A stretch of 64,000 bases of DNA from Sphaerolaimus hirsutus (lineage: Eukaryota; Nematoda; Chromadorea; Monhysterida; Sphaerolaimidae), in NCBI GenBank assembly GCA_964036195.1, contig OZ038451.1, forward strand, positions 9,428,529 to 9,492,528, read 5' to 3'. Positions 6,001 to 61,045 of this stretch are shown piece by piece. Under the pieces are notes generated by a model, which worked only from the letters and a program-made list of their open reading frames with translations, did not search any database and was not told the origin of the DNA. Position 1 is the stretch's first letter; every line of letters starts with the position of its first letter. Both the position numbers and the translations under genes were made by a program.

Positions 6001-9000
6001 TAAAGCAACAGTGGCGTGAAAATGTGAGGTGAAAAGTCAACCGTCGAGTAACGAATTTAATTAGATTCTGATGACTGTCAGTAGGGATTAGGGTGTCAAA
6101 AAAATTTTTTACGGAAAACGGAAAAAAATTGCACTTGGCGGAAAACGGAAACGGAAAAAAAATTTCAGCGGCCGGAAAACGGAAAAAGAGGCCGGAAAAA
6201 CGGAAACGGAAAAATCAAATTTGCACGGAAATGGAAAAACTTGCTGGAATTTTGCCGGAAAACGGATAAAATTTCGGAAAACGGATAAAATTTGCTTAAA
6301 TTTTGCTGGAAGTGGAAAAAATTTGCAGTAATTTTGCTGGAAACAGAAATTTTTTTACATCATTGACAATCTGCATGAATTTTTGCCAGTTTGGCTGATC
6401 AGAAAACTGAAAGTTGAGCCAGAAAAAGGTAAAATGAGGCAGAAAAATGGAAAATTGAGGCGGAAAATGGAAAAATGTAGAAAAACTGGAAATTGAGGCG
6501 GAAAATGGAAAAAAGGCGGAAAAACTGAAAATTTAGCCGGAAAATGGAAAATGAGTCGGAAAAACGGAAACGGAAAAAAATATTGCCGGAAAACGGAACG
6601 GAAAACGGAAAAAAAAATTTCAGCAGCCAGAAAACGGAAAAAATTTGCCTGCGGAAAACGGAAACGGAAAACGGAAACGGAAAACGGAAATTTGACACCC
6701 TAGTAGGGATGGAAAAAAAGCGCTTTTTTTAACGGCCCCGCTTTTTTTTTAAAAAAAGCGCTTTTTTCGCTTTTTTCAAAAAATCTTGAGACGTTCCCTA
6801 AAAACCTCCCAAATATGGTTCTGTATCAATATATACAGGTATATCAGACAAGTGGCAGTACTTGTGATGATATATAGCCATATAATGGCTGTGTAGTCAT
6901 TGGATAACATGATCAGTGGTGATTTCTGCCAAAAAAAATACTTTTTATGTTGACTCATTATGTATATCGCAGTTTGTGAATGTTTCATGACTTCGAGTGA
7001 AGTTAGGCATGAAATAGTGCTTATAAAAAAGGCTATGAAAGAAGGCTAATACATTGAGACTAATGTTCCCCACTGATGACGTATTTGGAGCACATTGGCT
7101 GAATATTCTATACTACACTTAACATATCACAACTTATTATTACATGATAGCATGCAGGGATAGAAGCAATGACGCTAAAAATGCCAACAAAAAAACAATG
7201 AAAACAGTCACCAGTGGTAATTTGCATGTGAAATTTTGCGCGTGCACACAAAAAATAGCAAAATACCTAGTGCATAAGTACAAAATTTTTTGCCAGCGCT
7301 TTTTTTAAAAAAAAAGCGGCGTTTTTTTAAAAAAAAGCGCTTAAAAAAAGCGCTTGCCATCCCTAACTGTCAGTCAACTAAAATTAGAAATTCTCAAGCA
7401 GAAAAAAGTCAACTGAAAAACACACGAATTTCCGATTAAAGGAGAGAATTTCCGATTTAATTCACATTTCTACGGTTTGTGAAAATATTGTGACCACAGT
7501 GTACATCTACTAGCGATATTCGCTACGGTGCATTCAAACCAGAATCTTTACAAGTAGGTAATCTAAAAATAATAATTCTTAAAAACTGACATCAACGGCG
7601 ACAACTTCGTAAAGTCCATCGGCGCCGACGGGAAAAATGAAGTGCTGCAGCGGCACGGGCCGGTAGTCGGTGTAGACCACGTGGCACGCTTGCGAATGCA
7701 GCCACGCCACCCACTCTGAGGGGGCGGAGTTAGCAGATCACTGATCACGATGGACGCGAGGTTGAGAGCGAATGAATATAGTCTAGTGATGGCACAAGTT
7801 ACAATGAAATCTATTATATCCCATCTGAATAAACGAACAGACAAAAAATTTCGTCGTCAGTAGGGTTGGGAATTTCAAAATTGTCGGGTTCGGGTATCGG
7901 GTCCAAAAATTTCGGGTCGGGTATCGGTTCCAAAATTTTGCGGGTATCGGGTTCGGGTTCGGGTATTGAGGTCGGGTATCGGGTCAGGTTTTCAGGTTAA
8001 AATGTCGGGTATCGGGTAATAGAATTGATGGGTATGAGGTAATAAAATCATCTGGTATTGGATTGAACAACAAAAATACAGCATGGTGTAGTAAAATACA
8101 GATTCGGTTGAATGGTGTAGGTTCGCGCTATGTAGTGTATCACAAAGTGTATAAATAAATGCAAATACACATGGGTATCGGGTTTCGGTTCCAAAAAGTG
8201 TGCGGATATCGGCTTCGGGTCGGGTTCCCAACCCTAGTCGTCAGATCAGATAAAGTTGCTCCTCCTACTGGGTGCATATTTTTTCACGTCAATTTACTCA
8301 TCAAAATATGGTAGCATTCATTTTATAGCGTTATATCCGTCCAGTATAAAACACAGCACACACCGGCAAATTGTCGGGCATTTGGTATCGTAGCGGAGAG
8401 AAACACGTAATGCACGTTGTCGGGTAGGAGCACGATCGTCTCCTCCCACACGACGCCTCGTTCTGAAAAAGATAGGAGGAGTTCAGTTCGCCAAACAGCA
8501 GAGTATGCGCCCAAAATTACGTATGTCTTGGTCGATAATGCGCCAGCCTGCACGATACTTATGTGCACACAAAAAAATATATATTAAAAAGGCGGAGTCG
8601 AGTACAACGTTTTGTGCATGTCACATTTTTTTGTTTTTTTCACAATTTTGATTTTATTGACGATGACGTCATAATAGTATTTCCTTCAAAAAAATGCATG
8701 GGCACGCATGGTCCGCGGAGTATACATGGTAACTACAATATTTCAATTTCCAAAAATCTCCAACCTTTATCTCTCATGTAATGGATTTCGTCGAATATGA
8801 CCCAACCAACTTCGCGCATTATCTCCGAGCCCTTGTAGAGCATCGAGCGCAGAATCTGTACACACAGCGATGAGTTTTCCCGGTCCAAAATCAGTTTTGA
8901 GGTGACTTTATGGGCTACAAAAAATGGCGAAAGACCGGTGCCCAAGTAAACCCGGTGCCCAAGTACACCCGGTGCCCAAGTTTAAATACCCGGTGCCCAA

Positions 9001-14250: not shown

Positions 14251-14427
14251 GGGGCCAGTCCCGCAAGATGACAAGTACTTGTCTCTTGACTCTTTCCATT
14301 TAAATTTTACTTGGCATTTGATTTTGCTCTTGACTCTTGTGTTGACTTTACTCTTAACTTGCTATTTTTTCATTTTACGTTACTCTTGACATTTCGCTCT
14401 TTACGTGCCCACTTGCAGGACTGGCAC
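14251..14427. mobile_element. Harbinger-like D-type MITE flanked by CTG..CTG
   Basis: Ends are GGGGCCAGTCCCGCAAG and CTTGCAGGACTGGCAC, flanked by CTG at 14248-14250 and 14428-14430. The interior holds GACTCTTGACTC-like words. It lies outside any recognised gene. Confidence 0.65.
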
Positions 14428-23408: not shown

Positions 23409-23615
23409 ATGATAAATACGTGACAATAATTCAACTGCTACTTAGAATGTAATGGAAAAAAATACAGTAAAAATGAAATTGCTGAAATTGTCTTGTATCA
23501 AGTGTAAAAATACCTAGGTACACAGTTGACTAAGACAATTTTAGCAATTTCATTTTTACTGTAATTTTTTCCATTACATTCTAAGCAGCAGTTGAATTAT
23601 TGGCACGTATTTATC
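23409..23615. repeat. Long palindrome (fold-back)
   Basis: Two arms of about 84 bp: GATAAATACGTGACAATAAT.. on the left and its near-perfect complement ending TTGGCACGTATTTATC on the right, around a ~40-bp loop. Its DNA would form a hairpin; probably a young MITE. Confidence 0.75.
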
Positions 23616-24323
23616 ATTAAATCACGTCTTGGCAATATCGCCTTAAACTCGAAAAGTGCAGGTGCAGGTGTTTCGGTGGTCTCGTGGAACTAGGTATTTT
23701 ACCTATTTACATTTACCTATACACATTTCTGCGAGTGCTAGCGCTCTAACTGCATAGTAGCGTATTTGAGCGCGCTGGGTTGAAACGGGAAAACCAGCGA
23801 CAAATTGTCAAAAGATAAGCACGTGTTTGGTCTAGCAGCAGCGCGTAACCATTGAATGACTTCTCCCGCTGCCGTGTTGTCGATTGGCGCTGGCTTTTTT
23901 GGTATTTACCTGTGCAGCGAGTTTACTGCAGTACACAGCCGCTGAAAATTTTCGTCGAGTTAAATAGCTAAGAATTATTCGGAAACATTTTTAGGAGTGA
24001 AATAAGTCCACGCATTTTAAACGATATTTTACATTTTAACGTACCGTATATCCTCGAAATACCCCCCTCGAAATATACCCCCATCGAAATAATCCCTTCT
24101 TTTGGCGGTTTTTTTAGCATTTTTCTTTGTCTGCGTAAATACGTTACAAACATCAATTTCTGGGATTTAAAAAATTTCTAGCGAAATAATAACCCCCCCC
24201 CTCGCTTAACCCCCCTCAAAATTCTCACTCTGAAAAAACCGTGGGGGGTTTTTCGAGCAAATACGGTAGCTCTTTTACATTTAGCGCTACTTCCCAGATG
24301 AATCAGCGAGAAGTCGGCCACCA

Positions 24324-27300
24324 ATGGGGCCTACATTCGTTACCCTGACCACACTGGCGCTAGCCGGCGGCCTGGCCAGCGGCGCCAGGTGCCAGTCCCA
24401 GACCCTGTAAAATGCCCTGTAAAATGTCAAATGTCATGCAAAGTGTCTAAATCATGTAAAACAAACTGCCATTTTTCCAAAGCATTTTACACGACTTAAG
24501 GCACGTTGCATGACACTTTACATTTTACATGGCATTTTACAGGGTCCGGGACTGCCCCCAGAAGCGCCATCGACCTGTTCTTGTTCCCGCTCGATATCCA
24601 CTTGCTGACCGAGCGCACCGGCACAATCACAGACAATCAGTTTTGCCTGCAAATTCTACTTCCCAGCGATGGACATTACGATGAAAACGACAATATTTTC
24701 AATCTGGCCGCGACCGCGGAAAACGGAAAGATGACAAATTCCGCGCACGACATGCTCGATTCGAGGGTGAAAGTTTTCTCCACCGGTTTACTTTATGTGC
24801 ACTTTCAATTACTGGATTCGTGCATTACCAGGAGGCCATTTGGACAAGTGGCCGTCTGGCAATATAAAATTGGAGAGCAGGTAAATTAATATTTTCTCTT
24901 AATACCCCCAGGGGTTTATTCTTTCAGAGTGTAAATGGGGGGGTAATCGAGGGAGGGATTATTTCGTGGGGGAAATGGTGGGAGGGGTATTCTGAAGGGG
25001 TAGGTATATTATATCGCCAGAATTCGTTTGAACTCCCAGTATTTATTCATTGTTGGTAACGTACGCAAATGTAGAAAATGATGTTTTTAACATGTGTTCT
25101 GCATCACACAGATCACAAACTGCAGTTTTTGGCAATAACATTCTATTTACAATTTCGGGTGGGGGTATTTCGAGGGGTTTTTTCATTAGCTAGCTCAGAC
25201 CGGGGGTATTTCGAGGGAGAGGGGTATTTCAGGGCAATACGGGATAATACGAAAGCAGGCACTAATTTATCGACTCATTTAAATCTTCAAACAAATATCC
25301 TCACTTAGCGCGCCAGCGGACACGCGACCGTCGCCAGCGTGCACTACAACGTCACGTTCAACTACGGCATCTCCCTGTGCCAGTCGTGCGCCATCGGCGG
25401 GACCAACCCTTCCCGCAATGGCAGTTCCCCAAGTGACGACTGCATAGTGTGGTACGCGTTGGTGCTGCCCTTGGCTGGCCTCATTTTGTGCCTGCTCGTG
25501 TGCATAGCGGTCAAGGTGTTCTTCTTTGAGAAGGGCAGTAGGAAGGGTAGAGCCAAGATGACCACGATGAATGGAGGCTCGCCGAACAGGCGTGAGTTTA
25601 TACTTGGTGTTTTTTATTGCATTTTTCGACTTCTGCGTACGTTACAAACAACAAATTAGTACTGGGAGCTGAAAAAAATTCAGGCGAAAAAATAAGCCCC
25701 CCTCGGTTAACCCCCACTGTGAAACAATCACCCCCGGGGGGTATTACGAGGAAATACGGTACCTATTCTCGTGAATGAATTATGGAATTTGTTACATTTT
25801 TACAGGTTTATGGAACTACTAATTTACCTAACCCCATTCATACAACATTATTTATCATGAATTTTAATCCAAATTTCTAAAAAATCTGACTTAAAAAATA
25901 GCTCATCCCCTTGAGCATAATAACCCCTCTCTCTCTCTCTCGAATAACTCTCCATCAAGAGTCTGACGAAAAATATTTCCCCTGGGGCCAGATTTAATTC
26001 TCCCTACAGATTTGTAGGGTAGGGCGTACGCCCGATAGATTTTTTAAAGTTCAGCCGCATCAACGCACATGCACCGAGAGCAAGGCGGTTTGTAAAATAT
26101 ACGAAACCATCCCTTAAGGTCGCCGATATTGCAATATGACGTATATCGCTTCAATTTTGGCCCAGAAATCACTATTTCGTCATTTCTTGGCCGTCTGCCA
26201 ATTCGCTTATTTTATTTTGTCGGGCGGGTTACTCGCATAAGTCGCGCTTTTGTACGCTCGTGCATGCATTTCTTTCTTGTCGCTGCCCTCGTGGTTTCGG
26301 TTGCAGACAGTGAACACTAAAAAAGTGACCACTTGACTACACAAAAGCGCGACTTATGCGAGTAACCCGCCCGACAAAATAAAATAAAAAACGAATTGGC
26401 CGACGGCCAAGAAATGACGAAATCATGATTTCCGTGCCAAAATCGAAGTGATATACGTCATATTGCAATATCGGCGACCTTAAGGGATGGTTTCGTATAT
26501 TTTACAAACCGCTTTGCTTTCGGTGCATGTGCGTTGATGCGGCTGAACTTTAAAAAATCTGTAGGGAGAATTAAATCTGGCCCATGGGTACTTATTCGAG
26601 GATATACGATATCTACATTCAAACAATCATAAATATCTACAAACAATTCCCTCGCACACCAGAGTTGTTAAAAGTACCAAACTTTTCTCAAAGTATACGT
26701 AAACGTAAAGTATTTATTTTTTACTCACCCCCTGAGTACAGAATACGTAAAGTAAATTTTTTTACTTTTACTCGCGAGTAAAAGTACTTTTTCATTCAGA
26801 AAACGTAAACGTGAGTATTTTAGATAATTTTCACCCAAATCGTCAATTTTCAGAACTTTTTGCCTATCTTCAGCAATTTTAGGCTATTTATGTGCTCATA
26901 TGGCCATTTTTGACGATTTTCCCCTATTTTAAACATATTCGCTTTGTTTTTTCACTTAAAACACGATATAAAAGACTACCCGAAATACGTTTTCTGTACT
27001 CGAGTACTTTGAAAATACAATACAATACAATACAATGAAAAAGTATACGTAAAAGCGAGTACTGGTACTTTTTTCTGAGGAAACGTAAACGTATTTACTC
27101 AGTACTCGAGTATACGTATTTTTCGAGTAAAAGTAAATACGTTTTAACAACTATGTCGCACACCCACAGAGCTGATATCGACAGTGGATGGCGCGCGCGA
27201 ATTATGCGACAGAACCGAGTCCAGCCACATTAATGCGACGCCGCTGACGCAAGTGCCCGCCGCCAACTGCACCACCGGCGCCAACTCCGGCGTGGACGGC

Positions 27301-28084: not shown

Positions 28085-29312
28085 TATGCAAATTTATTCT
28101 ACCGTAAATTCTCTAATTATACGACTGTCGCATTATTGTTTTCAGCACATTTTTAGGGGTCACACTTTTGGTTAGATATCATTAATAGGGAGGGTCGCAT
28201 TTTTTTTGTCTCAACTCAACGACTCAACTGTCTACACGACTGTGTGACCATGACATTGTAAAGGTTTTTCAAGGCGTAGAAGGAAGAAAAGGGAGAAAAG
28301 TCGCTCAAACTTGGCAAGTGAAAAATAGCTCAAAATTTATTCGACGTGGGGGTCGCAGTATACTCACACAATGTGCCCAAAAAGGTCGAACTACGGCAGG
28401 GGTCACTTTATTGAAGGGGGTCGTAATAATAGAGAATTTACGGTAAGTGATTATTATCCGCTTTTGACAGCGCAAAGTGCCACAACGCCCACCCCTTAAT
28501 CCGTTGCTCAACATAAAATTCAGGGCTCACTTCCTGATTTAGTTTTACTCGAAACGCATCATTTTCGCTTATGTTTAATTGTGAAAGAATCATATATTTG
28601 GAAGTCACACATAAATATATTTGCAACTATTATGATTATGACTACTTAAAACATTATCTATGAATATTAATGAAATGAACCACGTTTATTTGCACCTAGG
28701 GCGCGGAACAACAACAGCAATGCGATGGAATCACGCACCTCTCTTGAATGGCACGGGGCGCTGTTTGATTAGCCCGACAATTTGTTTCGGGCTGCCCGAT
28801 AAATTTCATCTGAATTTAACAATGGGATTGGGAAAGAAACATATTCAAATGCGACCCGTTTTTCGAAATGACCTACATATGTAGTTGAGCAGATCATGGG
28901 TAAAATATATAAACTAGGTATCACTTAACTAAATAGAGTTGAACCTTGGGTGTCATGTCAACTTTTAGTTTTCCAGCCGCTGAATTTCTTCCATTTCTTT
29001 TCCGTCTTTCCAGCTCATTTTCCGTTTTCCGGCAAATTTTCAGTTTTTTACGCCTCATTTTCTTTTTTTTCGCCTCATTTTCCACTTTCTGTTTTCTGTT
29101 CCAGGTTTTTCAATTATGCAATTTCTTCCTTCTCCGGCAAAATTTCTGCAAAGTTTTTCCGTTCCCCTCAAAATCTTTGATATTTTGCTTTCCGTTTTCC
29201 GGCATAGAATTTTTCAGTTTTTCGTTTTCCGTCGAGTCAAAAATTTTCCGTTTCCGTTTGCCAGAAGTGCAAAAAATGTTTCATGTCACTTTTCCTAAAA
29301 ATTTTTTTGACA
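28085..29312. other. 3' flank of membrane-protein gene; repeats, no supported gene
   Basis: About 28100-28445 is a fold-back with TACCGTAAATTCTCTAATTAT-like ends. 28947-29310 is a GGGTGTCA..TTTTTTGACA element with a TTTTCCGTTTTCC interior, related to 6089-6702. An open frame at 28660-28884 lacks splice support. Confidence 0.45.
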
Positions 29313-30419
29313 AAGTTGCACCGCCATTCAGAACCACAGTAAATCAGGCATCCTCAATTCCAGTTACAATAATGAATAGAGCTGCCAGAGAAAAACTACA
29401 AGGCTAATTCAATTTTTCAACAGGCAATGGACGGTAAATTTTGTTTGCCCACTACTCCAATGCATTAAAATCTGACTGCAGAGAGTCTGGCCAAGGCAAA
29501 AATCGAAAACGATATGTATTTAGGTAGGTACCGTATTTCCTCGAAATACCCCCCGGGGGTGATTGTTTCATAGTGGTCCCGAGAGAGGGGGGGTTAAACG
29601 AGGGGGGGGGGGTATTTCGAGGGGGGGGTTATTATTTCACAAGAAAATTTTTGAAAACAAAGTACGAAATTGTCGTCTGAAACGTACGCAGACGTCGAAA
29701 AATGCAACAAAAACTGCCATTTATAAGGTTCTGTAGACTAATATTAGTACGTAGATGGTATAAACACTGTTCTAACGTGATTCCGACATTGTTTTAACGT
29801 GTGTTCTGCACTACGCAGAACATAAACTGCCGTATTTGTCATGTACGTTCTCTTTACACTCAATTTGGGGGGGGGGTATTTCGAGGGGGGGTGATTGTTT
29901 CATAGTGGTCTCGAGAGGGGGGGGGGGGTCAAACGAGGGGGGGTATTTCAAGGGGGGGGGGTATTTCGAGGAAATACGGTATACTACATGGAAAGCGAAC
30001 AGGGACAATCTGTCACCGGAGAGAACGCAGCCAACCAGGAGCCAGTTCCGTAAGTGGTAAAGTAAAAAGGAAAACTTTCCTCTTCAATTTACTCTACTCT
30101 TCACTTTTTACTTTACCTACTCTTAAATTTTCCACTTGTGGAACGAGCACCAGGGGGCAGTCACAAAGTGTGAACTGTGTATCCAAATCTTTTTTTTTTG
30201 TATCTAGCTCGTATGTTTTTGTATCCAGATCTTTGGGACTGCCCCCTGGCGCTAGTTCCACAGGTGGAAAATGTAAGAGTGAAGTAAAAAGTTAAGAGTA
30301 GAGTAAAGAGTCAAAGTGAACAGTGAAGAGTACAGTTCCCTTTTTACTGTATCACTTGCAGAACTGGCCCCAGGATTTCAAGATTAAATAAATATTTCGA
30401 CAGTGCGATTTGTGTTTGA
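29313..30419 (+). CDS. Doubtful small coiled-coil gene
   Basis: Candidate exons: about 29313-29393 (..IMNRAAREKLQ), a micro-exon 29414-29423 (GCAATGGACG), 29482-29523 (ESLAKAKIENDMYL), 29996-30038 (ANRDNLSPERTQPTR) and 30374-30419 (ISRLNKYFDSAICV, then TGA). From the micro-exon onward the phases agree (1, 1, 2), and the joined piece looks like a helical, charged protein. The first junction (after ..KLQ) has no GT donor, so the 5' part is unproven. Intron 29524-29995 is filled by CCGTATTTCC-type elements. The last intron is a composite of three Harbinger-like MITEs. No family recognised. Confidence 0.35.
30039..30370. mobile_element. Composite of three Harbinger-like MITEs between candidate exons
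   Basis: D-type 30039-30150, short E-like 30154-30245 and D-type 30249-30370, separated by CAG/CTG trinucleotides. The outer left end is GAGCC, not GT. An inner donor, C|gtaagtgg at 30050, and an inner acceptor, cacttgcag, exist within the ends. Splicing with outer or inner sites gives two different in-frame C-termini. Confidence 0.65.
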
Positions 30420-30878: not shown

Positions 30879-33800
30879 ATGGCAAGGGCGCTGGACACAT
30901 GGAAGAAAATGGTCATGAGCAAGTTGGTTTAGAGTGGATTTTTTATGTTCACATCAGAATGGTTCGATTTGCCATTTATATATTTGGTTCAAGGAGATAT
31001 CTTAATATGTGTTTCAGTTACATTGTTCCATCCCTCCAAAAATACCTTATTTTCATATGTAGGCAGACATCTCGCGGCTATCGAGACATAAAGAATGGAT
31101 CTTTTTTACAGAAATCATTCCTTATAATGCTATCCCATGGCTCCACAGCCATTCTACGGCTAAATTTACCACCACAAAGTACTGGCAATTGTCTGATACC
31201 GTATTACCTCGAAATACCCCCAGGGGGTTTATTATTTCGCCAGCAAAATTTGAGGGGGGGATTATTCGAGGGGGGGGGTTATTCGAGGGGGGGGGGGTCT
31301 ATTATTTCGCCAGAAATTTTCGGAAATTCCCCATACGCAGACGTAGAAAAATCGAACAATCACATAGATTTATGTGTTTATAGGCATATATTACTGTATA
31401 TACACAAAAACCCTTCCCTAACGTCACTTAATCATCAGTGTTAACGTGTGTTCTGCATAGTACAGATCACAAACTGCGGTATTTGTCATGTACGTTCACG
31501 TTACACTCAATTTTAGGGGGGTATTTCGAGGGGGGGGGTTTATTATTTCCTCAGCCGAAATTTAGGGGGGGTATTTCGAGGGGGGGGGGGGTTAATTCAA
31601 GGGGGGGGATAATTCGAGGTAATACGGTATACATGATCCATAACCATATTTGCGAGCTTTTTAAAAAACCCGTTCATAAAAAAAAACTACGTTTTTTATG
31701 TTTTTGTCTTTAAAGAAACAGGGTCGTTAAAAAACATTTTTTTGGCCATCCCTCCCTACACATAATGGAGCATTTTTAGCAGATTTTGTCCCAATTTTCA
31801 CTCAAAATCACTAATTTTCATTACTTTTTGCCTATTTTCACCTCCAAACTGACTAGTTCATGTGATTTTTGCCTATTTTCTGTTATACGTTTTAACAACT
31901 ATGCTGCACACCTAATATTACAAGTGCATCACATATGCCAAACCCTCAGAAACCAACCAAAATTTGAGTACGACGCGGAGTTTCCTGACATCAAACCAAA
32001 CCATAGATTCAAAATATAGGTAGACATTTTTGTGTATAATTAATGCAAATTCTTACATTCACCGCGCAGATCTGTCCTGATAGCAGTATCGCTGGGCATC
32101 CTGATCAATGCCATATTCATACTGTTATTCATCGTTGCCGGGCTGGTGGGCGTGCTGGTGCCACTCCGAACCCTGTAAAATGCCCTGCAAAATATAAAAT
32201 GTCATGTAAAGTGCCAAAAGCCGTTTACCATTTCACAGACTAATTTTACTTGATCTTCAACACTTAGCATGACATTTTACATTTTCCAGGATATTTTACA
32301 GGGTCCGGGAGTGCCCCCCGATCTTCGTGGTGATCCTATTACTCGCGTGCGGACTGGCCGGCGTTTACTTCGCTTTCTGCATCAAGAGAAACAGAAACGT
32401 TCAAGCGGCGGCGGATGGGCCAGTCAAAGTGCACGTTGAAAATGTGAGTCTCGTGTGAACTCTTTTAACTTTAAACTCTTTCATTCTTAACTATATAAAA
32501 GGTACAGATTTAGATCTTCTTTGCGCCAGGATACAGTCCCCGAGCCCTGTAAAGCGTTAAGTCAAGTGTCACGTGTCATGTGAACTGAAGTGTCACAAAA
32601 ACAAAAAAGAAAAGATTTTATTACTGCACTTTGCATGACAATTGACACTTTACATTTGCCATGAAAATTGAGAGTTTTGCGAGACATTTTACATTTTACG
32701 GGGCTTGGGACTGCCACCAGTAGCATTTAAGTATTTATTTTATTACACACCTATTCACTTATACTCGGCGAACAGCACACCTAGTATGAAAACCCACCAT
32801 AATTTGATGAATAAAATCATGTGATAATTTTCATAATTAATTATTCCATAGTAAAAACGAAATATTATGATGAAAAAAATGTATAATTTTTGGTTCATTA
32901 TTCAGGCGGGATATGGTAGGTATTCATAACAAGTGTGATGTCCGCCGAGTATACCTAAAAATTCAGAAGCTAGTGCCGTCAACAAAGCCGACGGAAAATG
33001 AAAGGCCAATTGACGCGGGCAGCATGCGGGACGACCAAAGCATGAAACTCAGTCACTCAGAGCTCAACGTGACCAGTGGGCAGCTGGTGCTCAGCCAACA
33101 TCCGGACCATGGTCAGTTGGGTTGTGATCGATCTTTCCGTGGACCATGTCTAAAATAATTGCATGGATTCAAAGCTTGAAATGGCCAGATTCAATACGAA
33201 AAGTACTCTATATCAAATACATAGCGTATTTGCTCGAATAATTCCCCTGGGGAATAACTTTTCCATCAAGCTTTTTGGGGGGAGGGTCTATTGCAGCCAC
33301 GCACACTAGTACCGTATCGAAAGTTGGGAAAAAGTCATAAATCTGTACATGTTTTCTGATCGCCGTCAACAATAGTTGACAGATTCATCATTGTGGTAAA
33401 CTCAAATGATCCAAAAACGGATTCACCAGTTCCCCAAAGTTCAGTGGTGTACTGTGCACAGTGCCATTCAAGCGGACGAATAATTATTTCGTCACAATTT
33501 TCAAGCACGTTTCTATCAACCAATTCTACAAAATATGCATTTATTACACAGTAACACACCATTTTTGTTCAAACTGGGTCTGGATGTAACAAATTGATCA
33601 TATGCCGTAAGAGGTGAATTCTTTTTTGCTCAATCGAATTACGGGGGGAATTATTCGAGCAACTACCGCATTCATGTACAGTCCGATACCAGACTAGTTA
33701 ATAAAGTAGGTAACTCTAAATCCGTGCAGTTAAACACAAACACATCCAACCACATCTAAACCAAATGAAACCTAACCCACCCAGTAGAAATCACGCCGCT

Positions 33801-38772: not shown

Positions 38773-38941
38773 GTGCCAGCCCCAAGGCCCCTGAGGTGCA
38801 TAGTCAAGTGTCATGTTAAATGTCATAGAAATTTGTCAATTGTCAGGGATAGTTCAGTGATAAATTATTTAAAGTTTTGATTGACATTTTACATGACATT
38901 TGACACTTGACTTTACACCTTACATGGCTTGGCACTGCCTT
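38773..38941. mobile_element. E-type MITE flanked by CTG..CTG
   Basis: Ends GTGCCAGCCCCAAGGCCCCTG and GGCTTGGCACTGCC, CTG at 38770-38772 and 38942-38944. The right duplication is one base away from the MATH-BTB stop codon, so it lies at the start of that gene's 3' UTR. Confidence 0.7.
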
Positions 38942-47955: not shown

Positions 47956-50900
47956 CTAAATCGCAATGGTTCGACTTTGATCAAATTGAGCAATAGACGA
48001 AAAACACATAGGCTCGGCATGTATAGTGTGCGACGTGCACGACTGCACATTCACTCGAACGTAATCACCGGGCACGGGTTTTCGCTGTTCAACTGGACCG
48101 GCCAGAGATAGACTCCGCCTTTCATCCAGCAGTGGCGTCCATTGACAAAGTACCGGCTGGCCGCCGTCCAAAACACCGCGCCACTTTGTGGTCGGCTGAC
48201 GTTTGCTCTCCTGAAAATTTTCACGTTCGTTTGCCATTTTCAAGACATGACTTTTGACACTTCGTATGACGATTTATATTTTACAGATCCATTTACATGA
48301 TATTTGACATTTTACAGGGCATATTACACACCATTTCACATTTTTCAGGGTCTGGGACTGGCACCAGGAAACCCAAACCAACCCTTTGGACAAGTGCCAA
48401 TTGCTGAGTACCAAGTAGCAGTTTGTTCCTGGCGAGGGCGCCTTCTTGGTAAGCATCGTGTACTTCCATTACGCGTCTGTTTTTCACGGCTGTCGGCACG
48501 TCATCCTCATAGCGCCGATGCGCCATAGTTTTCTGGCAAGTTTTTTGCACTTTCAATGGATTTTTGGGCACACTATAGTGAGAAAAAGTAAGTAAGGACT
48601 TGATGTAAATTGATACGCAGTATTTAGGGAAAGACATAATTACCAAAGCAGCATCTCTCAGAGGATTGAAATGCTCACACTATAGTTAGAAAAAATTGAT
48701 ATTTGAAGTGGCCTAATTTTTATAATAGATTAATCAACACCCCACGCCAAGGAAAAAAACCCATACTGACACCCACTCAATATCTATGCCTAAGTATTAT
48801 TTATCGCCTTCACCCCCGCCCCCTTTAAATCCCCCCCAACAAACCTCTCTCATACTGTAGGCAAAGCAGAATATTCTGTCAAACTGCACAGTGCGGATGA
48901 GGTCTAGAGTATCCTGGTGGTCCTGTTCGGTTTCCCCGCAAAAGCCAGCTATGAAATCGCTCACTAGTGCCACCCCTGCAGAGGAAAAAAGTACAGTTGT
49001 ATTGAACAGGGCCGTATCCAGGGGGGGGGGCGGGGGGGGCTGCAGCCCCCCCCTCCCGGGGCGAGACCAAAAAGTGACCGGAAAATGCGACTTTTTCAAC
49101 GTCAGCGCAAAAATTTTGCGCGCAAGCGCGCATTCTTCACCAGACATAAGGTATTATTATCGGATTTGCACCATGTGGCCACAAATCATTATAAATACAC
49201 TCAATGTTGTGTTTTTTTGCTGTTTTGTATGTATTTACATAGATATTACAGCATTCCATGGCGCTGACGCCAACGCCAATGGCGCCATGGCGTAGCGCCT
49301 ACTAATGGCGCCAGCGCCATGGCGCCATCCCGCCACTATGTAGCTAAAATTTTAGGGGGGGGGGGCTGAGCCCCCCCCCCTCGCCGGCCTCCGTAAACAA
49401 GCAGCCCCCCCCGCTCAAAAATCCTGGATACGTCCCTGGTATTGAAATTGTTTTTGTTTTTTGTGGCAGAACTTTTAAAAATCAAAATCAAATTCCAAAA
49501 ATCAAGCTAGTGTTTGGAAAACAGTCCATACAGAAAAAATACAGATTTGCAAATAAATATATAAATTGATACTTCAAACTTCAGAAACTAGTTAAAATTC
49601 CGAAAACGCTTTTTTTAATCCATAGTTACAAGGATTTCAAACGATCTGAAACCTTTTTATGCCTCCAGGCTATTACATAGAACAGTCCGAATTTTTTTGA
49701 AAGATTTTAGAGGTAGAATAAAAATAACCTGGGATCCTCTGTCGTATTCTATCCACCAGTTTCAAGTACGCCTCCTTGGTGTATCCCCGACGCATACGTT
49801 CCAGCATGAAATCAGAGCCGCTTTGAGCTGGCATGGTGATTTGTTTGCATACGTTCGCGTGCGCCGCAACCGCGTCGAGCACCTGAAAAGTACAATTTCT
49901 TGAAGAAAAAGACCTTGCGTGTAATTAACTGGGGGGTCTCCAATGGAGGGGGTAACCCGCAAACCACCCAGCTATCTATCTACCCTGTATGTATTTTTTG
50001 ACTACTATCCCCTGACCTCCCCCCAAATCGGCCAGCTATCTGCAACCCGCGTAACCCCCTCCCCAAAACCACCCCCAAAAAATATTTTTCCCCAGCTATC
50101 TATCCAGAGGTGCAATTTGCTATCTAATCAACCCGCGGTGACCCGGTAAAATCTAGGTGACCCCCGAACAAATGTGAATATGTTTCCCTCCCAAACCTCA
50201 TCAGGAAAATCCTTCGGATGAGGGCTAGTAAATCGTATCCGCATCTCAGGATCAATATCCGCCACGGCATGCAGCAGATCCGCAAATCTCCGACCGCCAA
50301 CTTTCGGTCTGTAGACCGTGTCGAAGCCGTGCGCGCGCGGCGTCACCTCGCCCGAGTTCGGCACTGACGCGCCCGACGCGCCGGGCAGCGCGAAGTGCTG
50401 GCTGGAGGACAGGTCGCGGTAGCTGTTTACGTTCTGGCCCAACAAGGTCACTTGACGTACGCCCTGAAATGGGCCACAGTTGAGGCGTCAAATTCTATAA
50501 GTCGACCAGGGCGACCAACTTTGGAAATCTTAAGTTAGACCTGGAAACGTCGTCTGGGGTTGCTGCCGCCGATTTATTATTATTTTCCATGATTTTTTGA
50601 CAAATTTTTTTGACATGCCCCTTCTCATAGTGGGGGCTTTTGGAAAAAATGCAGAATTTTTTTTAGCAAGAAGTCAACAAATCCATTTAATTTTGGGTTA
50701 AAATTTGACGCTTAAGTCCACCTTTTGCGACCTTTTTGTTTGGGAAACGCAAGAATTTTGTGGGCAGTAGAATAAGACACAATTGCGTTATTTTTAACAA
50801 CACGACAGTCGACGGCTAACCTGTTCCGACAAAATCCGCACTTCATTGACAATCGAGTCGATAGGTCGACTGCGCTCGCGGCCGCGCGTGAATGGAACGA

Positions 50901-55700: not shown

Positions 55701-58700
55701 CACAATCCAACAACCCAGGTTTCCTTCATCGAAAACCCGCCGCACGCGAGTGTTTCCACCAGCAAGGAGGGGGGTTCAGACCCCCAGACGAGCGTGTCCA
55801 CCGACAGCACCGAGTCCGCCGCCACCGGCACCCCGCCCAATGGAAACGCTGCCACGTGGGACGAGAATGTGGTTTTCTTCACTAAGACACCAGTGCAGTT
55901 GGCTAGGTTTGTGCGCTGTAAGGGGTTGTTTACAGGGCTTGTGTGCCTACAAAAAATAAGGGAAAAGTTCCATAGTTCTGGAATAAAGTTCCGTATCTGC
56001 AAGAAAAAGCAGTGAAGTATAATCACTAGTTAATTGTACACATGCCAATTCACAGATAATTTGAGCCTGTCGTTCAAGAACTTATAGACATAAAAGGATT
56101 TTCAGTTGTCGGTTAGGAATTTTCCATTTCCCGGAACTTTTTCAGTTACCGCAAATCCTCGAATAAGACCCCCCCTCGAATAACTCCCCCCCCCTTGAAT
56201 AACTCCCCCCTGTTGGCGAGGCGAGGAAAAAATAACTCCCCCCCCTTGAATAACTCCCCCCTCATGAATAACTCCCCCCTTTGGATGAAAACAATACAAT
56301 ACAAAAATACAAAAAATATGAGACTACAGCAGCGAAAGCAGATACATACGTTATGTGTATGCAATGTATACACTCTTTTGGTTGTTGTTGGACAGTTAAA
56401 TACATGAATCACATAAGTTACAGACTCCATCCATGCAGGGCCGTATCCAGGGGGGGGCGGGGGGGCTGCAGCCCCCCCCCTCCTGGGGCGAGACCAGAAA
56501 GTGACCGGAAAATGCGACTTTTTCAACGTCAGCGTCAAAAATTTTGCGCGCAAGCGCGCATTCTTCACCAGACATAAGGTATTGTCATCAGATTTGCTCC
56601 ATGTGGCCGCAAATCGCTATAAATACACTCAATGTTGAACTTTTCGCTGTTTTGTATGTATATTTACATACATATACAGCATTCCATGGCGCTGGCGCCA
56701 ACGCCAATGGCGCCATGGCGTGGCGCCTACTAATGGCGCCAGCGCCATTCAGCCACTATGTAGCTAAAATTTTCAGGGGGGGGGGCTGAGCCCCCCCCCT
56801 CGCCGGCCTCCGTAAACAAGCAGCCCCCCCCCCGCTCAAAAATCCTGGATACGTCCCTGCATCCATGCAATGAATAAAGTCCATGTTTTCTGAGGAAAAA
56901 ATACCCCCCCCCCCCCCTCGAATAACTCCCCCCTTGAATAACTACCCCCTTGAATAACTCCCCCCCCCTCCAAAACGTCTGAGGAAAAAATAACTCCCCT
57001 GGGGTCTTATTCGAGGATTTATGGTAATTTTTTTTCGGCACGAGGGCATGCAAAGTATTGCTTGGCACATTTCCAAATTCCATCAACTTTTTTAACACCT
57101 TACGCAGGGACCTAATTTTCGCCACCTATCCGAAGGGGTGTCGGTTGCAGGTGGTCCAGGTGGGCCCGGTGATGGACAATGGAAGATTGTGGGCCAGACC
57201 GGTGGAAGGCCAGCATGTCTATGATAAGTTGTTGCGGGTAGGTTTATTCATTCATTGTGATTGCCACTAGTGTTGGAAAAAATAAATTTTTAAAACGATT
57301 GATTAAATTTTTAATTTAAAATATTTTTTTTTCAAATCGTCGAAAATGAGGGTATAGAGAAAATGTGGAGAAAAATCGCAAAATATGAAGTGCATTTCTG
57401 CCTTTAATAAAATCAGTTACCACCATCTGATAAAAAAAATTCAGATTTAAAAACATCAGTTGAATTCCCAATCAAATCAGTTGAAATCAGTGACATTCCC
57501 AATTGCCACCACCCCAACTTTTGTTATAACAAGTTCCACCCCTCCCTAACAACCCCCCAGGACCTCCGCGACAACTACGGCGAGTCCGGCCCCGGTTCCC
57601 TACCCCCAGACGTGACCGACGTGGCGCCGGCTGCCGCGCCTGCAATCGACCCTTGGATCGATGGCAAACGGCCGCCCACTTTTAGACCTTGCAGTTGGGA
57701 ATTGGAGAGGGTGCATAGGCCGGTCAGGCCTGAGGCATTGTTGGTGGGTTTGTGTGGACGTTGTGTTGTGCTGATGCTACAGGCGTCGCCAGGATTTTGA
57801 CCTGCAGGGCTTGTTCACATAGATACAGCGAATCGCCTTGCCTGAAAACTCCTGAAGCACTCCTTAGACCCTATAAAATGTCGAATACATATCATGCAAA
57901 GTGTCAAATGTCATGTAAACTGCGTTTGCTATTTTACGGGGCAATTTACATGAATTTTGACACTTCGCATGACATTTTACAGGGTCTGGGAGTGGCACCT
58001 AGGGATGGAAAAAAACTTTTTTACACAAAAATCCATAAAACCAATGAAAAATACCACCAATGTCAATATCTATCTGAAATTGCGCACTGCGAAAATGCTG
58101 GAAAATACGCGCTTTTTTTGGTGAATAGGTGCTATTTTTGGCTGTTGTTTAAAAACGGTTTTTCAAAAAAAACAAACACAAAAAACTGCCAAAAACCCCG
58201 TTAAAAAACGTTTAAAAAGTGACCCTTAAACACCTTAAACGTTATTCTCAAAATTATCGATCTGTACCACTGTCCGAACCACAGGAGAACGGCCTGTACG
58301 TGTGCTGGCACGACGGCGCGTGGCGGCGGTGTTTGGTCACCACGGTGGGCCCCCAGGCAAAGTGGGCCACCGTGGCCATGCTCGACGATGGCGAGTGCGT
58401 CGAGGCTGTTGATAGGAAGTCGATTCGGTTGCCCATACCCGGTGTGTTAGAGGGTTGGATTGAGGGTGTTGGATGTTTCACACAGTTCGCGCGGCACAAT
58501 CCCATACTGCCCCCCACACAGACGTGATGGAGTGCTGCGTGTCCACCATGTTGTGCCTGGCTGACTGCGAGGTGGTGAACATGACCGACCAGCCGTCCTT
58601 CGACATGCTCATCTACGGCGTGAGCCACGCCATCGGCAGCCCGTTCCCCCTGCACTCGGTGCACGTGGCCGGCCAACGGAACAGGGGGCAGTCCCAGACC

Positions 58701-61045
58701 CTGTAAAATGCTCTGTAAAGTGTCAAATGTCATGCAAAGTGTCAAAAGTCATGTAAAATGCCCTGCATATGGCAAACGTACGTTTGCCATTTTGCAGGGC
58801 ATTTTACATGACTTTTGACACTTTGCGTGAGATTTGAAATTTTGCAGGGCATTTTACAGGGTCTGGGATTGGCACCAGGGCTAAGTGGAGTGATAGCGGA
58901 TCGGCTTCGCCTGGACCTGACTTGAGTATAGCGCAGGTAGGTCTCTATCGCAGGGTTTAATGAATTTGGACCCACCGGGGGGTTTCGTATAGATAGTAAT
59001 TTGCTCTTCCGGAGGTATAGGTGGCTGAAACAACAAAATTGGGGGTGGGGGTTCGCGGGGGTTCAATTTAGGTACGCTTTTTCGGTAGGTGTATTAGGAA
59101 GAAAGGGAGAAACATCGGTGAAAAATGGCAAAGAATAGGTATATGTGCACATGTATAGCTAAAAATAAATAGTTGAAAATATGCAATAATTCACATGAAT
59201 GGTATTGATTTTGAATGTGAAAAACTATAAAATGATATTATACTCTGGTTCGTCGGTGCTGAAAATATTGCGTGCTGAAAATATTGCGCTGTGCTTCGCT
59301 CATTCACTCCATTTACCTATGCCGTCCACTACAGTGGCAGACTGTATACTCCATTTACTTTACACCTTGCACGCGTGGTTCCCGCTGGAAGTGTGCCAAC
59401 GATGGTTTACGCGTGCTACTTTCATAAAAAGATGATAAAATTGATTGTTGTTATAATCTTATTCATTAACATATTCACATCGATGAATTTTTTCATCTTT
59501 TTCGGAAATCGCATGATTTTATAATCATTGGCACGCTTCCAACACGAGACATAACTCAGTGCGAGGGCAGAGTATCATGTCCGCCGAGTATACATGTTTT
59601 TTTTTACATGGGTACGGTTAATTTTTTTTCTCTGTAAACGGTACTGTTCGGTAAATCTGAAAATCGTGGTAAGCAGTACGGTAAATTTCGAAAATTGCTG
59701 TAAGCAGTACGGTACTTTGCTGTAAACATTAAAACGAAAATTGCTGTAAACAGTAGTAAGTTTTCCAAAAATGCGGTACAGTAAATTCTTCCACACTATC
59801 GTGCACTCTGCAGCGCGTGGCGGCCATGGCATTCAGCGAGAGGGCTGCAGAGTCCACCAGCAGGTCCAGGGAGCAAGATGTCCCGTCTAGCGCGAATGCC
59901 GCGGCACCTGCAGCGACACAAGCGGCAGAAAGTGACGTCACCCCCGAATCGCCGTTGTCGCCGTGGGTCGTAAAAACGCCCTCGGGACAAACATTCTCCG
60001 GCCATGCGGTGTCCAGTTTTGGTCCCGATGAATTTGCTGTCATCGATGATGTCGTGCAGCCGGTGCCGGATTACCTCAAAGTTTGTCGCGTAATGTCACC
60101 TATCAGGATGGATCAATGTTTTAATGATTGTTTTTGAGAAAAAACGTCTGAAAAACTTCATTTTTTTAAAATAAAACCGTTTTTTTTTAAAGCTTGCAGA
60201 TATGAAACGACCACCAATGGTAATGTGCATGTGAAATTGTGCAAAAAATGTGCAATGTGCAAATTGTCCATGCGCAAAAAATGTAAAACACGTAGTGCTT
60301 AGTTTTGCTAAAACGTTTTGGCTTATGCTCTAAAAAGAACGATTTCGCTGCCTGTGTTTAAAAAACACACAAAAAACACCGGCCATCCCCAATCTCAACC
60401 ATTTTCTGTTTATCGCCATTCGCATTTCCATCACTCCACCGTTCACCTCCCCAAACGCAGACCGAGCTATCAAAGGGCGCGCCGCTGCCGCCTGACCAGG
60501 AGCCGTCGCTGTGGCACGTGTACGGCGCGCTGGTGCAGCGCGAGCAGGCGGCCGGCATGGCGCCCAGACGCGACTGGCAGCGCGTGCTGCTCGTGCAGCG
60601 GGCAAAGTCCAGGTGCCAGTCCCGCACCCTGTCAAAGACCCTGTCAAGTGTGACAGACCCTGTAAAAGTGTCATGTAAAAGACCCTGTCAAGTAAGTGTC
60701 ATGTGTATCCAGATCTTATTGTATCGTATCTTAGTTTTATCGTTTTGAGTCTAAATCTTATGTCCAAAAGTAAGATTTAGATGCAAAAACATAGGATTTG
60801 TATATGACCAAATAAGATTTGGACACACCTGACATTTGAGTGGGTTTTAAATGACACCTGACATTTTACAGGGCCTTTTACACTTTACAGGGTCTTTTAC
60901 AGGGTCCGGGACTGCCCCCAGGGAGCGTGCTTACACCGTGTTCATGGTGGACGTGGGCGAGTTCGGCGTGGTTGACATGGATCATTTGAGACGCATACCC
61001 GATTCGTGCGCCGTCGCCAAGTATATGTTCGCGATCAAGTGCAAG
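52751..61045 (+). CDS. LOTUS and multi-Tudor protein (TDRD7/Tapas-like), 3' end not found
   Basis: Exons 52751-52810, 52908-53053, 54682-54790, 55719-55906, 57108-57237, 57561-57743, 58285-58441, 58522-58702, 58879-58936, 59814-60080, 60461-60612, 60922-61045; phases 0, 2, 0, 2, 0, 0, 1, 2, 0, 0, 2 agree, 585 codons with no stop yet. Residues ~34-105 form a LOTUS/OST-HTH domain (FVERVFDIMKDYQ, NVYVKLFVERPPANWLSIL). Three Tudor-like regions follow: ~150-211 (weak), ~265-385 (LYVCWHDGAWRRCLV, VAMLDDGECVEAV) and ~495-585 (WQRVLLVQRAKSRERAY, FMVDVGEFGVVDMDHLRRIP). LOTUS plus several Tudors is the TDRD7 layout; such proteins act in germ granules with Vasa and piRNA factors. Introns 8 and 11 are Harbinger-like MITEs. 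If the outer donor at 58684 were used the protein would lose six residues. Confidence 0.88.
53591..54211. mobile_element. G-type fold-back MITE
   Basis: GGGCCAGATTTAATACTCCC..GGGAGTATTAAATCTGGCC (shown in parts), flanked by CAG (53588-53590, 54212-54214). Long arms; closely similar to 25985-26582. Confidence 0.85.
54371..54440 (+). tRNA. tRNA-like sequence (pseudo-tRNA or SINE head)
   Basis: Has an A-box-like TGGCTCAGGTGG (about 54373) and a B-box GGTTCGATCCC (about 54417). The anticodon stem-loop TCGCG-CTTACCA-CGCGA would read TAC. The D and T stems each have a mismatch and no convincing 7-bp acceptor stem pairs, so a working tRNA-Val is unlikely. Confidence 0.4.
55047..55619. mobile_element. 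hAT-like MITE, poly-A ATCGATTTTTT type
   Basis: TGGGTTGG..TAACCCTA ends, duplication GTCATTTC/GTCATTGC (one mismatch). In the Tudor-gene intron 54791-55718, 100 bp before exon 4. Confidence 0.75.
56436..56859. mobile_element. hAT-like CAGGG-ended MITE, 424 bp
   Basis: Perfect duplication CATCCATG (56428-56435, 56860-56867). Third copy of the family at 43550 and 49007. A-type CCTCGAATAAC elements flank it (about 56150-56290 and 56895-57030). Confidence 0.93.
57865..58000. mobile_element. Degenerate E-type MITE
   Basis: AGACCCTATAAAATGTCGAA on the left, TTACAGGGTCTGGGAGTGGCACC on the right. In the Tudor-gene intron 57744-58284, followed by a poly-A element (about 58005-58215). Confidence 0.6.
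58685..58875. mobile_element. E-type MITE defining a Tudor-gene intron; outer GT lost
   Basis: CAG-flanked (58682-58684, 58876-58878). The left end reads GGGGCAGTCCC, so the outer donor is GG. The inner donor CCCT|gtaaaa, 18 nt further in, has the same phase; the outer acceptor ggcaccag is intact. Both give codon phase 2 joining to G|GCT-AAG. Confidence 0.82.
59333..59592. repeat. Second copy of the TACTCCG..CGAGTATAC repeat
   Basis: Same orientation and order of blocks as 40790-41045. In the Tudor-gene intron 58937-59813, followed by a tract of GCAGTACGGTAA-like repeats (59630-59790). Confidence 0.65.
60613..60918. mobile_element. E-type MITE forming an intron exactly, inside a Tudor domain
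   Basis: Left GTGCCAGTCCCGCACCCTG, right GGTCCGGGACTGCCCC, flanked by CAG (60610-60612, 60919-60921). Removal of the element plus one CAG joins TCC-AG|G-GAG in frame, giving the continuous Tudor segment AKSRERAYTVF. It is longer than the other copies because of a TATCCAGATCTTATTG-type insert. Confidence 0.9.

Follow-up and report, generated by a model that had tools for sequence, protein, structure and literature searches.

Can a transposable element (TE) become a spliceosomal intron by the very act of inserting itself into a gene? This question is raised by a locus in the window analysed here, i.e., the whole 64-kb stretch of Sphaerolaimus hirsutus DNA (C2:9428529-9492528, in an assembly of 348 Mb in 762 contigs), where an element with complementary halves stands between two pieces of open frame. 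The original prediction was that the terminal inverted repeat (TIR) gives GT and the duplicated CAG gives AG, so that insertion into a coding CAG makes an intron at once. It is noted that such cases have precedents, the statements on published systems here and below being drawn from parts of the cited papers. Introners are TE copies that form whole introns in unrelated genes, with some families carrying the 5' splice site and co-opting the 3' site from the duplication (as in Chrysochromulina) and others adding codons; within animals and land plants, the large survey recovered them from just two groups, each of them animal (Gozashti et al. 2022, PMC9860276).

The focal element and its host gene

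The features at the focal locus, all on the + strand, are as follows.

24324..24388, +, coding part of exon 1, from ATG to ...GCC AG, ending in the left CAG (open frame)
24389..24558, +, fold-back MITE of 170 bp, 5' end GTGCCAGTCCC, 3' end GGGACTGCCCC, one of 231 exact-ended copies
24559..24561, +, right CAG of the target-site duplication, the predicted 3' splice acceptor (right-repeat base test)
24389..24561, +, predicted spliceosomal intron GT...AG, phase 2 (frame restored exactly)
24562..24880, +, exon 2; the intron after it, gtaaat...ttag, looks ordinary (open frame, codon score)
25309..25591, +, exon 3, with a transmembrane segment by eye and its end placed by eye at GTGAGT (open frame)

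The order read at the site is exon ...GGCGCCAG, then GTGCCAGTCCC (from 24389), running to GGGACTGCCCC (to 24558), and then CAG AAGCGCC, with the left CAG at 24386-24388. As had been claimed, complementary halves are flanked by CAG on both sides, the pairing extending over 64 nt at 86%. For the RNA of 24369-24581 a fold of -100.4 kcal/mol is predicted, as compared with -51.9 kcal/mol for shuffles (z -12.2), with 0 of 200 shuffles as good. Cutting out 24389-24561, that is, the element plus one CAG, gives GCC AG|A AGC, so the predicted splicing would restore the AGA as originally proposed, with the frame open for 34 codons on the left (21 from the ATG) and 108 on the right; the codon score at the junction is 9.1 on the exon 2 side and 4.3 on the left side. 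The focal observation is confirmed at the DNA level, the removal of the intron being predicted.

It is also noted that, as judged from its sequence, the host gene is an orphan. Its protein gave no homologue among 980 candidates compared and no match in Pfam, and the labels of signal peptide and ectodomain that had been given to the parts on either side of the element stand on the reading frame alone. Two further inverted repeats were seen by eye nearby, one at 23440-23620, just upstream of the gene, and the other a long fold-back element at 26000-26580, with arms of roughly 250 bp around 26320.

The family, its ends and its target site

When the genome was searched for the focal element, 2582 first-look candidates came up, from which 40 places were scored and all 40 read, with the element ends corrected by hand in 6. 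In this set, which was not chosen on CWG, 31 of the 40 places have a CWG triplet at either side of the element. A strict pattern, requiring both 11-bp ends with 130-160 bp between them and CWG outside, was then counted across the genome, as the original prediction had proposed for the TIR, and gave 231 exact-ended copies with CWG on both sides as compared with 0 for the reversed-pattern control; since the patterns are exact, 231 is a lower bound for the family. In the window, the 11-bp end with at most 2 mismatches has 34 matches versus 8.5 expected, and these two comparisons together exclude chance. From the 231 copies we sampled 78, keeping 76 after removal of the duplicates L089 and L108, while L025 was dropped from the first 40 in pooled counts. 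The consensus from 110 pooled different copies is a near-perfect palindrome of 184 nt, from which single copies diverge by 3 to 34%, with averages of 7 to 12% in the four main classes. L021 and L025, about 66 kb apart on C7, look like one insertion that was copied along with its surroundings in a segmental duplication; their elements show point changes and a length difference of 12 bp.

The two ends are not alike. One begins GTGCC and the other GGGGC, with GT at both ends at only 4 places; among 39 copies not chosen on exact ends, all have T as the second base and 38 have GT. (At L019, with CTG on either side, both ends are GT-like, GTGCC and GTACC.) The target as read from the empty site is the palindrome GNC-CWG-GNC. 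The exon part of a splice site is MAG|G, which is contained in CCAGG, and thus the choice of the transposase and the demand of splicing agree for the CAG half of the targets. Two points count against the introner reading: the donor GTGCCA is weak, and 46 of 53 CAG/CAG copies (left/right repeat) have an AG 19 nt ahead of the intron end, the use of which would shift the frame. In the predicted fold of the consensus (-163 kcal/mol), the internal GTAAAA and TTTTACAG are buried while the unlike ends stay unpaired, the free stretch being 4 nt long at the 5' end and 7 nt long, made up of CCCC and CAG, at the 3' end. Based on this fold, the pairing of the arms may guide splicing.

As to the class of the element, the original prediction had named PIF/Harbinger as the duplicator of CWG. 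This has to be corrected, because a CWG duplication defines the NuwaI group, whereas for PIF/Harbinger in the strict sense it is TWA (PMC4482050). The duplication here is CWG and not TWA, and by this the element is classed as NuwaI-like (PHIS superfamily) rather than as PIF/Harbinger in the strict sense. NuwaI is described as having a TIR usually beginning GGG and, in the survey concerned, as occurring in animals only (PMC4482050); the CWG duplication is shared with our element, which begins GGG at one end and GTG at the other. NuwaI TIRs have lengths of 12-61 bp (PMC4482050), while the arms here span nearly the whole length. Among the matches listed, no title joins Nuwa to introners, which does not prove absence from print. 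The genome also holds 163 matches to the transposase profile DDE_Tnp_4. Many of these have nearly equal scores and take up 633 bp to cover 147 profile positions, and in most of them 4 internal TGA are present; perhaps they carry an insert of about 190 bp, an intron or introner inside the transposase gene itself.

Coding location, predicted exact removal and the right-repeat base

The flanks of the copies are GC-rich like exons: the two 60-bp flanks of the 76 sampled copies have GC contents of 0.61 and 0.57, as compared with 0.41 at points 450 bp away, and a good part of the copies lie in GC-rich coding sequence. With the cut-off for a coding call set at the 95th percentile of the codon score at 152 control points, the joined site is called coding on the strand where GT comes first in 29 copies, on the other strand in 5 and on neither in 42. 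The split of 29 versus 5 has p 3.9e-5, and becomes 27 to 5 without L059 and L060, which are among the training fragments of the codon model. By class, the numbers for GT-first, other and neither are 15/2/24 for CAG/CAG, 8/2/14 for CTG/CTG, 6/0/2 for CTG/CAG and 0/1/2 for CAG/CTG. Note that the 42 of 76 with no coding call on either strand, including 24 of 41 CAG/CAG and 14 of 24 CTG/CTG copies, count against reading the family as introners, and that some copies sit in noncoding DNA or older introns. The intron phases 0/2/1 among the GT-first coding copies are 22/7/0, near the 96/27/17 (n=140) that CAG/CTG sites in the host coding sequence offer, and thus no phase preference is claimed.

All fragments with a homology match have GT first on the coding strand, although the frames submitted were mainly GT-first. 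GT-first frames, picked by frame and by eye, had a Pfam match in 3 of the first ten joined proteins (zinc finger, 7tm_1 and KIF21A; the other 7 without match) and in 7 of the second ten (TUDOR, Oscp1, Mon2_C, AMP-binding, Srx and, weakly, Ig and TPR; the other 3, the focal protein among them, without match). In the opposite orientation, none of 10 candidates (nine antisense frames and the window copy of opposite orientation at 58685..58875) had a Pfam match.

A closer look at exact removal is given by eight products, chosen because they are recognisable, in which the flanks were joined minus one repeat and compared with solved structures (PDB chains). All eight align across the junction without a gap there: EFTUD2, USP39, ADH5 (class III alcohol dehydrogenase), BLM, CNOT9, PPP2R1 (the PP2A scaffold A), GRK2 and POLRMT. 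The copies in ADH5, GRK2 and POLRMT are CAG/CAG, that in BLM is CTG/CAG, and those in EFTUD2, USP39, CNOT9 and PPP2R1 are CTG/CTG. In many genes the intron predicted from frame and homology coincides, base for base, with the element and one of its repeats, and codons directly adjoin the repeats on either side. U2-type GT and AG stand at the exact ends in the CAG/CAG and most CTG/CAG coding copies, the focal one included, with L035 as an exception, where a stop interferes with the exact GT-AG intron; in the CTG/CTG copies the exact ends are not GT-AG. In many unrelated genes, similar elements thus end at predicted splice boundaries, which supports the introner mechanism that had been proposed. 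As in published introners, the donor would be carried and the acceptor borrowed from the duplication (PMC9860276), but the Chrysochromulina introner has 4-bp duplications and no TIRs, unlike the fold-back CWG element here (PMC9860276). Recognisable PIF/Harbinger sequence is also described, along with other TEs, inside recently gained fungal introns (PMC8476143); these differ in that no exact match of element to intron and no CWG rule is described in the parts of that paper used here. Introners explain bursts of intron gain, and a NuwaI-like element would give a clean mechanism for this in an animal; the genes found, among them 7tm receptors, GRK2 and Tudor, likewise suggest an animal host.

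Four other copies in the window can be compared with the focal one.

60613..60921, +, second exact intron of the family, phase 2, interrupting a Tudor-domain exon and made up of a 306-bp element and CAG (Pfam TUDOR)
58685..58875, -, copy of opposite orientation in a + strand open frame, CAG on both sides, GT end on the right
32158..32317, +, copy within an open frame, flanked by CTG (left) and CCG (right), no AG at the end
48240..48364, -, copy about 25 nt inside an apparent older intron, not an exact intron, its inner end approximate

The joined protein at 60613-60921 matches TUDOR across the junction (E 3.3e-6). For the copy at 58685..58875 no exact GT-AG intron is available, because the GT end stands on the right; splicing from CCT|GTAAAA (58703) to CACCAG (58878) might instead add 6 codons in frame, and its joined protein has no Pfam match. 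The gene around the copy at 48240..48364 we take, from its open reading frame, to be CDK5RAP1-like.

The targets CAG and CTG make up a built-in experiment, in which one type of insertion occurs with and without an AG. In the genome the left/right repeats are CAG/CAG in 133 copies (by subtraction from 231), CTG/CTG in 60, CTG/CAG in 29 and CAG/CTG in 9; additionally, the right middle base is C or G in 10 left-CTG and 4 left-CAG copies. These counts pool coding and noncoding copies with segmental duplicates included (among the 9 CAG/CTG places, two resemble each other), and independence of the copies is assumed in the p-values. After a left CTG, the right middle base has changed in 39 of 99 copies, to A in 29 of the 39 and to C or G in 10, whereas T-to-A makes up 20.8% of the changes of T inside 103 aligned elements (p 1.2e-12). 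After a left CAG, it has changed in 13 of 146 copies and A is retained in 133. The ratio of CTG/CAG to CTG/CTG, 29/60, compared with that of CAG/CTG to CAG/CAG, 9/133, gives p 2.9e-7. Moreover, 6 of 8 sampled CTG/CAG copies are coding on the GT strand, as compared with 0 of 3 CAG/CTG copies. The excess of T-to-A and the retention of CAG, i.e., the acceptor A being gained or kept, point to selection for AG at exactly the end of the newborn intron.

The proposed mechanism and the CTG insertions

We propose that a fold-back MITE, non-autonomous and of the NuwaI kind, serves here as an introner, and in the introner reading we have high confidence. The features seen in the DNA are the family, its ends, the CWG duplication, the palindromic target, the coding location of a good part of the copies, the restored frame, the strand preference and the selection on the acceptor base. 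In the model, a transposase acting in trans would cut CWG. The 5' splice site would come from the GTGCC end, which has T as its second base where GGG is the usual start in NuwaI, and the other end, CCCC, together with the duplicated CAG would form CCCCCAG as the 3' splice site. The arms would pair, burying the internal GTAAAA and TTTTACAG and leaving the unlike terminal bases single-stranded. Insertion into CAG would then give a GT-AG intron at once, a reading consistent with the focal copy and supported by the family-wide tests. Insertion into CTG would permit exact removal only as a GT-TG intron, tolerated at first, and a later T-to-A change in the right repeat would make this intron canonical.

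The original expectation of CAG as the insertion target thus holds for the focal copy but not as a rule for the family, since CTG is also hit and leaves no AG acceptor, so that exact removal there would need a GT-TG intron. The many CTG targets lacking an AG acceptor are new here; in Gozashti et al. 2022 neither a CTG class nor a maturation from TG to AG is found in the parts used (PMC9860276). The CTG/CTG copies in EFTUD2, USP39, CNOT9 and PPP2R1 imply, from their sequences, GT-TG introns, which is the simplest reading for conserved genes. That the animal uses constitutive GT-TG introns, born from CTG insertions in conserved genes and converted base by base to GT-AG, we consider slightly favoured. 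If it is true, the birth and maturation of introns would be watchable in one genome, and it becomes testable whether the spliceosome accepts TG as a sole acceptor. Constitutive GT-TG introns would be unusual, as in a human survey TG was never seen as sole acceptor and TG sites occur only as alternative sites (PMC2374985). The human TG sites have an AG within 28 nt (PMC2374985), to be compared with the AG 19 nt upstream of the end in 28 of 32 CTG/CTG copies here; the EFTUD2 copy is without this AG but has one 8 nt downstream. The difference is that the human sites are only ever alternative, while the predicted GT-TG introns here are read as constitutive. Among animals, Fritillaria has non-canonical intron ends too, with introners named as a possible source (PMC13326754); its commonest such ends are, however, AG/AC and AG/AT and its U2AF is duplicated (PMC13326754), whereas our element would combine a GT donor with TG as the unusual acceptor.

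The human survey also speaks for the view, doubtful but deserving weight, that exonic CTG/CTG copies are not spliced exactly, with internal GT-AG pairs adding or dropping codons or with the mRNA being mostly broken. We examined 20 CTG/CTG copies, coding and uncertain. In 5 of them a GT-AG pair keeps the frame at a cost of only 18-30 added nt: with the outer GT, the USP39-like L006 adds 18 nt, L019 24 nt and L074 30 nt, and with the inner GT and an AG inside the exon, L117 adds 27 nt and L092 30 nt. By contrast, 12 of the 20 need at least 36 extra nt, and for 3 (L041, L022 and L039) no in-frame pair exists. Combined with the common donors, the internal AGs that are usually present, at 19 or 31 nt from the end, cause a frameshift, and CNOT9 is aligned over 118 residues without a junction gap. 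Except for the five copies named, internal splice sites as the usual pair are therefore judged unlikely on frame.

It is improbable that the coding copies are young and heterozygous, with the other allele keeping the gene working. A single assembly as the basis would allow this, but the nearest sampled relative of a sampled copy differs by a median of 11%, the best match of the focal copy among the other 39 scored places is only 88% identical, and the arms within one copy, which in the consensus form a near-perfect palindrome, differ by a median of 10-12% (EFTUD2 7%, CNOT9 14.5%, PPP2R1 13%). Still less credit is given to a hairpin-guided, non-spliceosomal removal in place of splicing. The strong stem in the focal copy and in the consensus would suit it, and it would treat CAG and CTG alike; for the same reason it predicts no preference for AG, while T-to-A is strongly favoured and CAG is kept, and GT is retained in 38 of 39 copies.

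Finally, that MITEs entered older introns whose old flanks were lost is hardly credible: the copy at 48.3 kb does lie inside an apparent older intron, but in many genes the predicted intron consists of precisely the element and one repeat, and the repeats lie directly next to codons. Elsewhere in the window, the open frames with FPF/FRF repeats at 6200-6730 and 28940-29410 arise from low-complexity DNA and are likely no genes, and diverged copies of the family, not evidently exonic, stand at 14251-14427, 38773-38941, 32534-32717 and 57868-57998.
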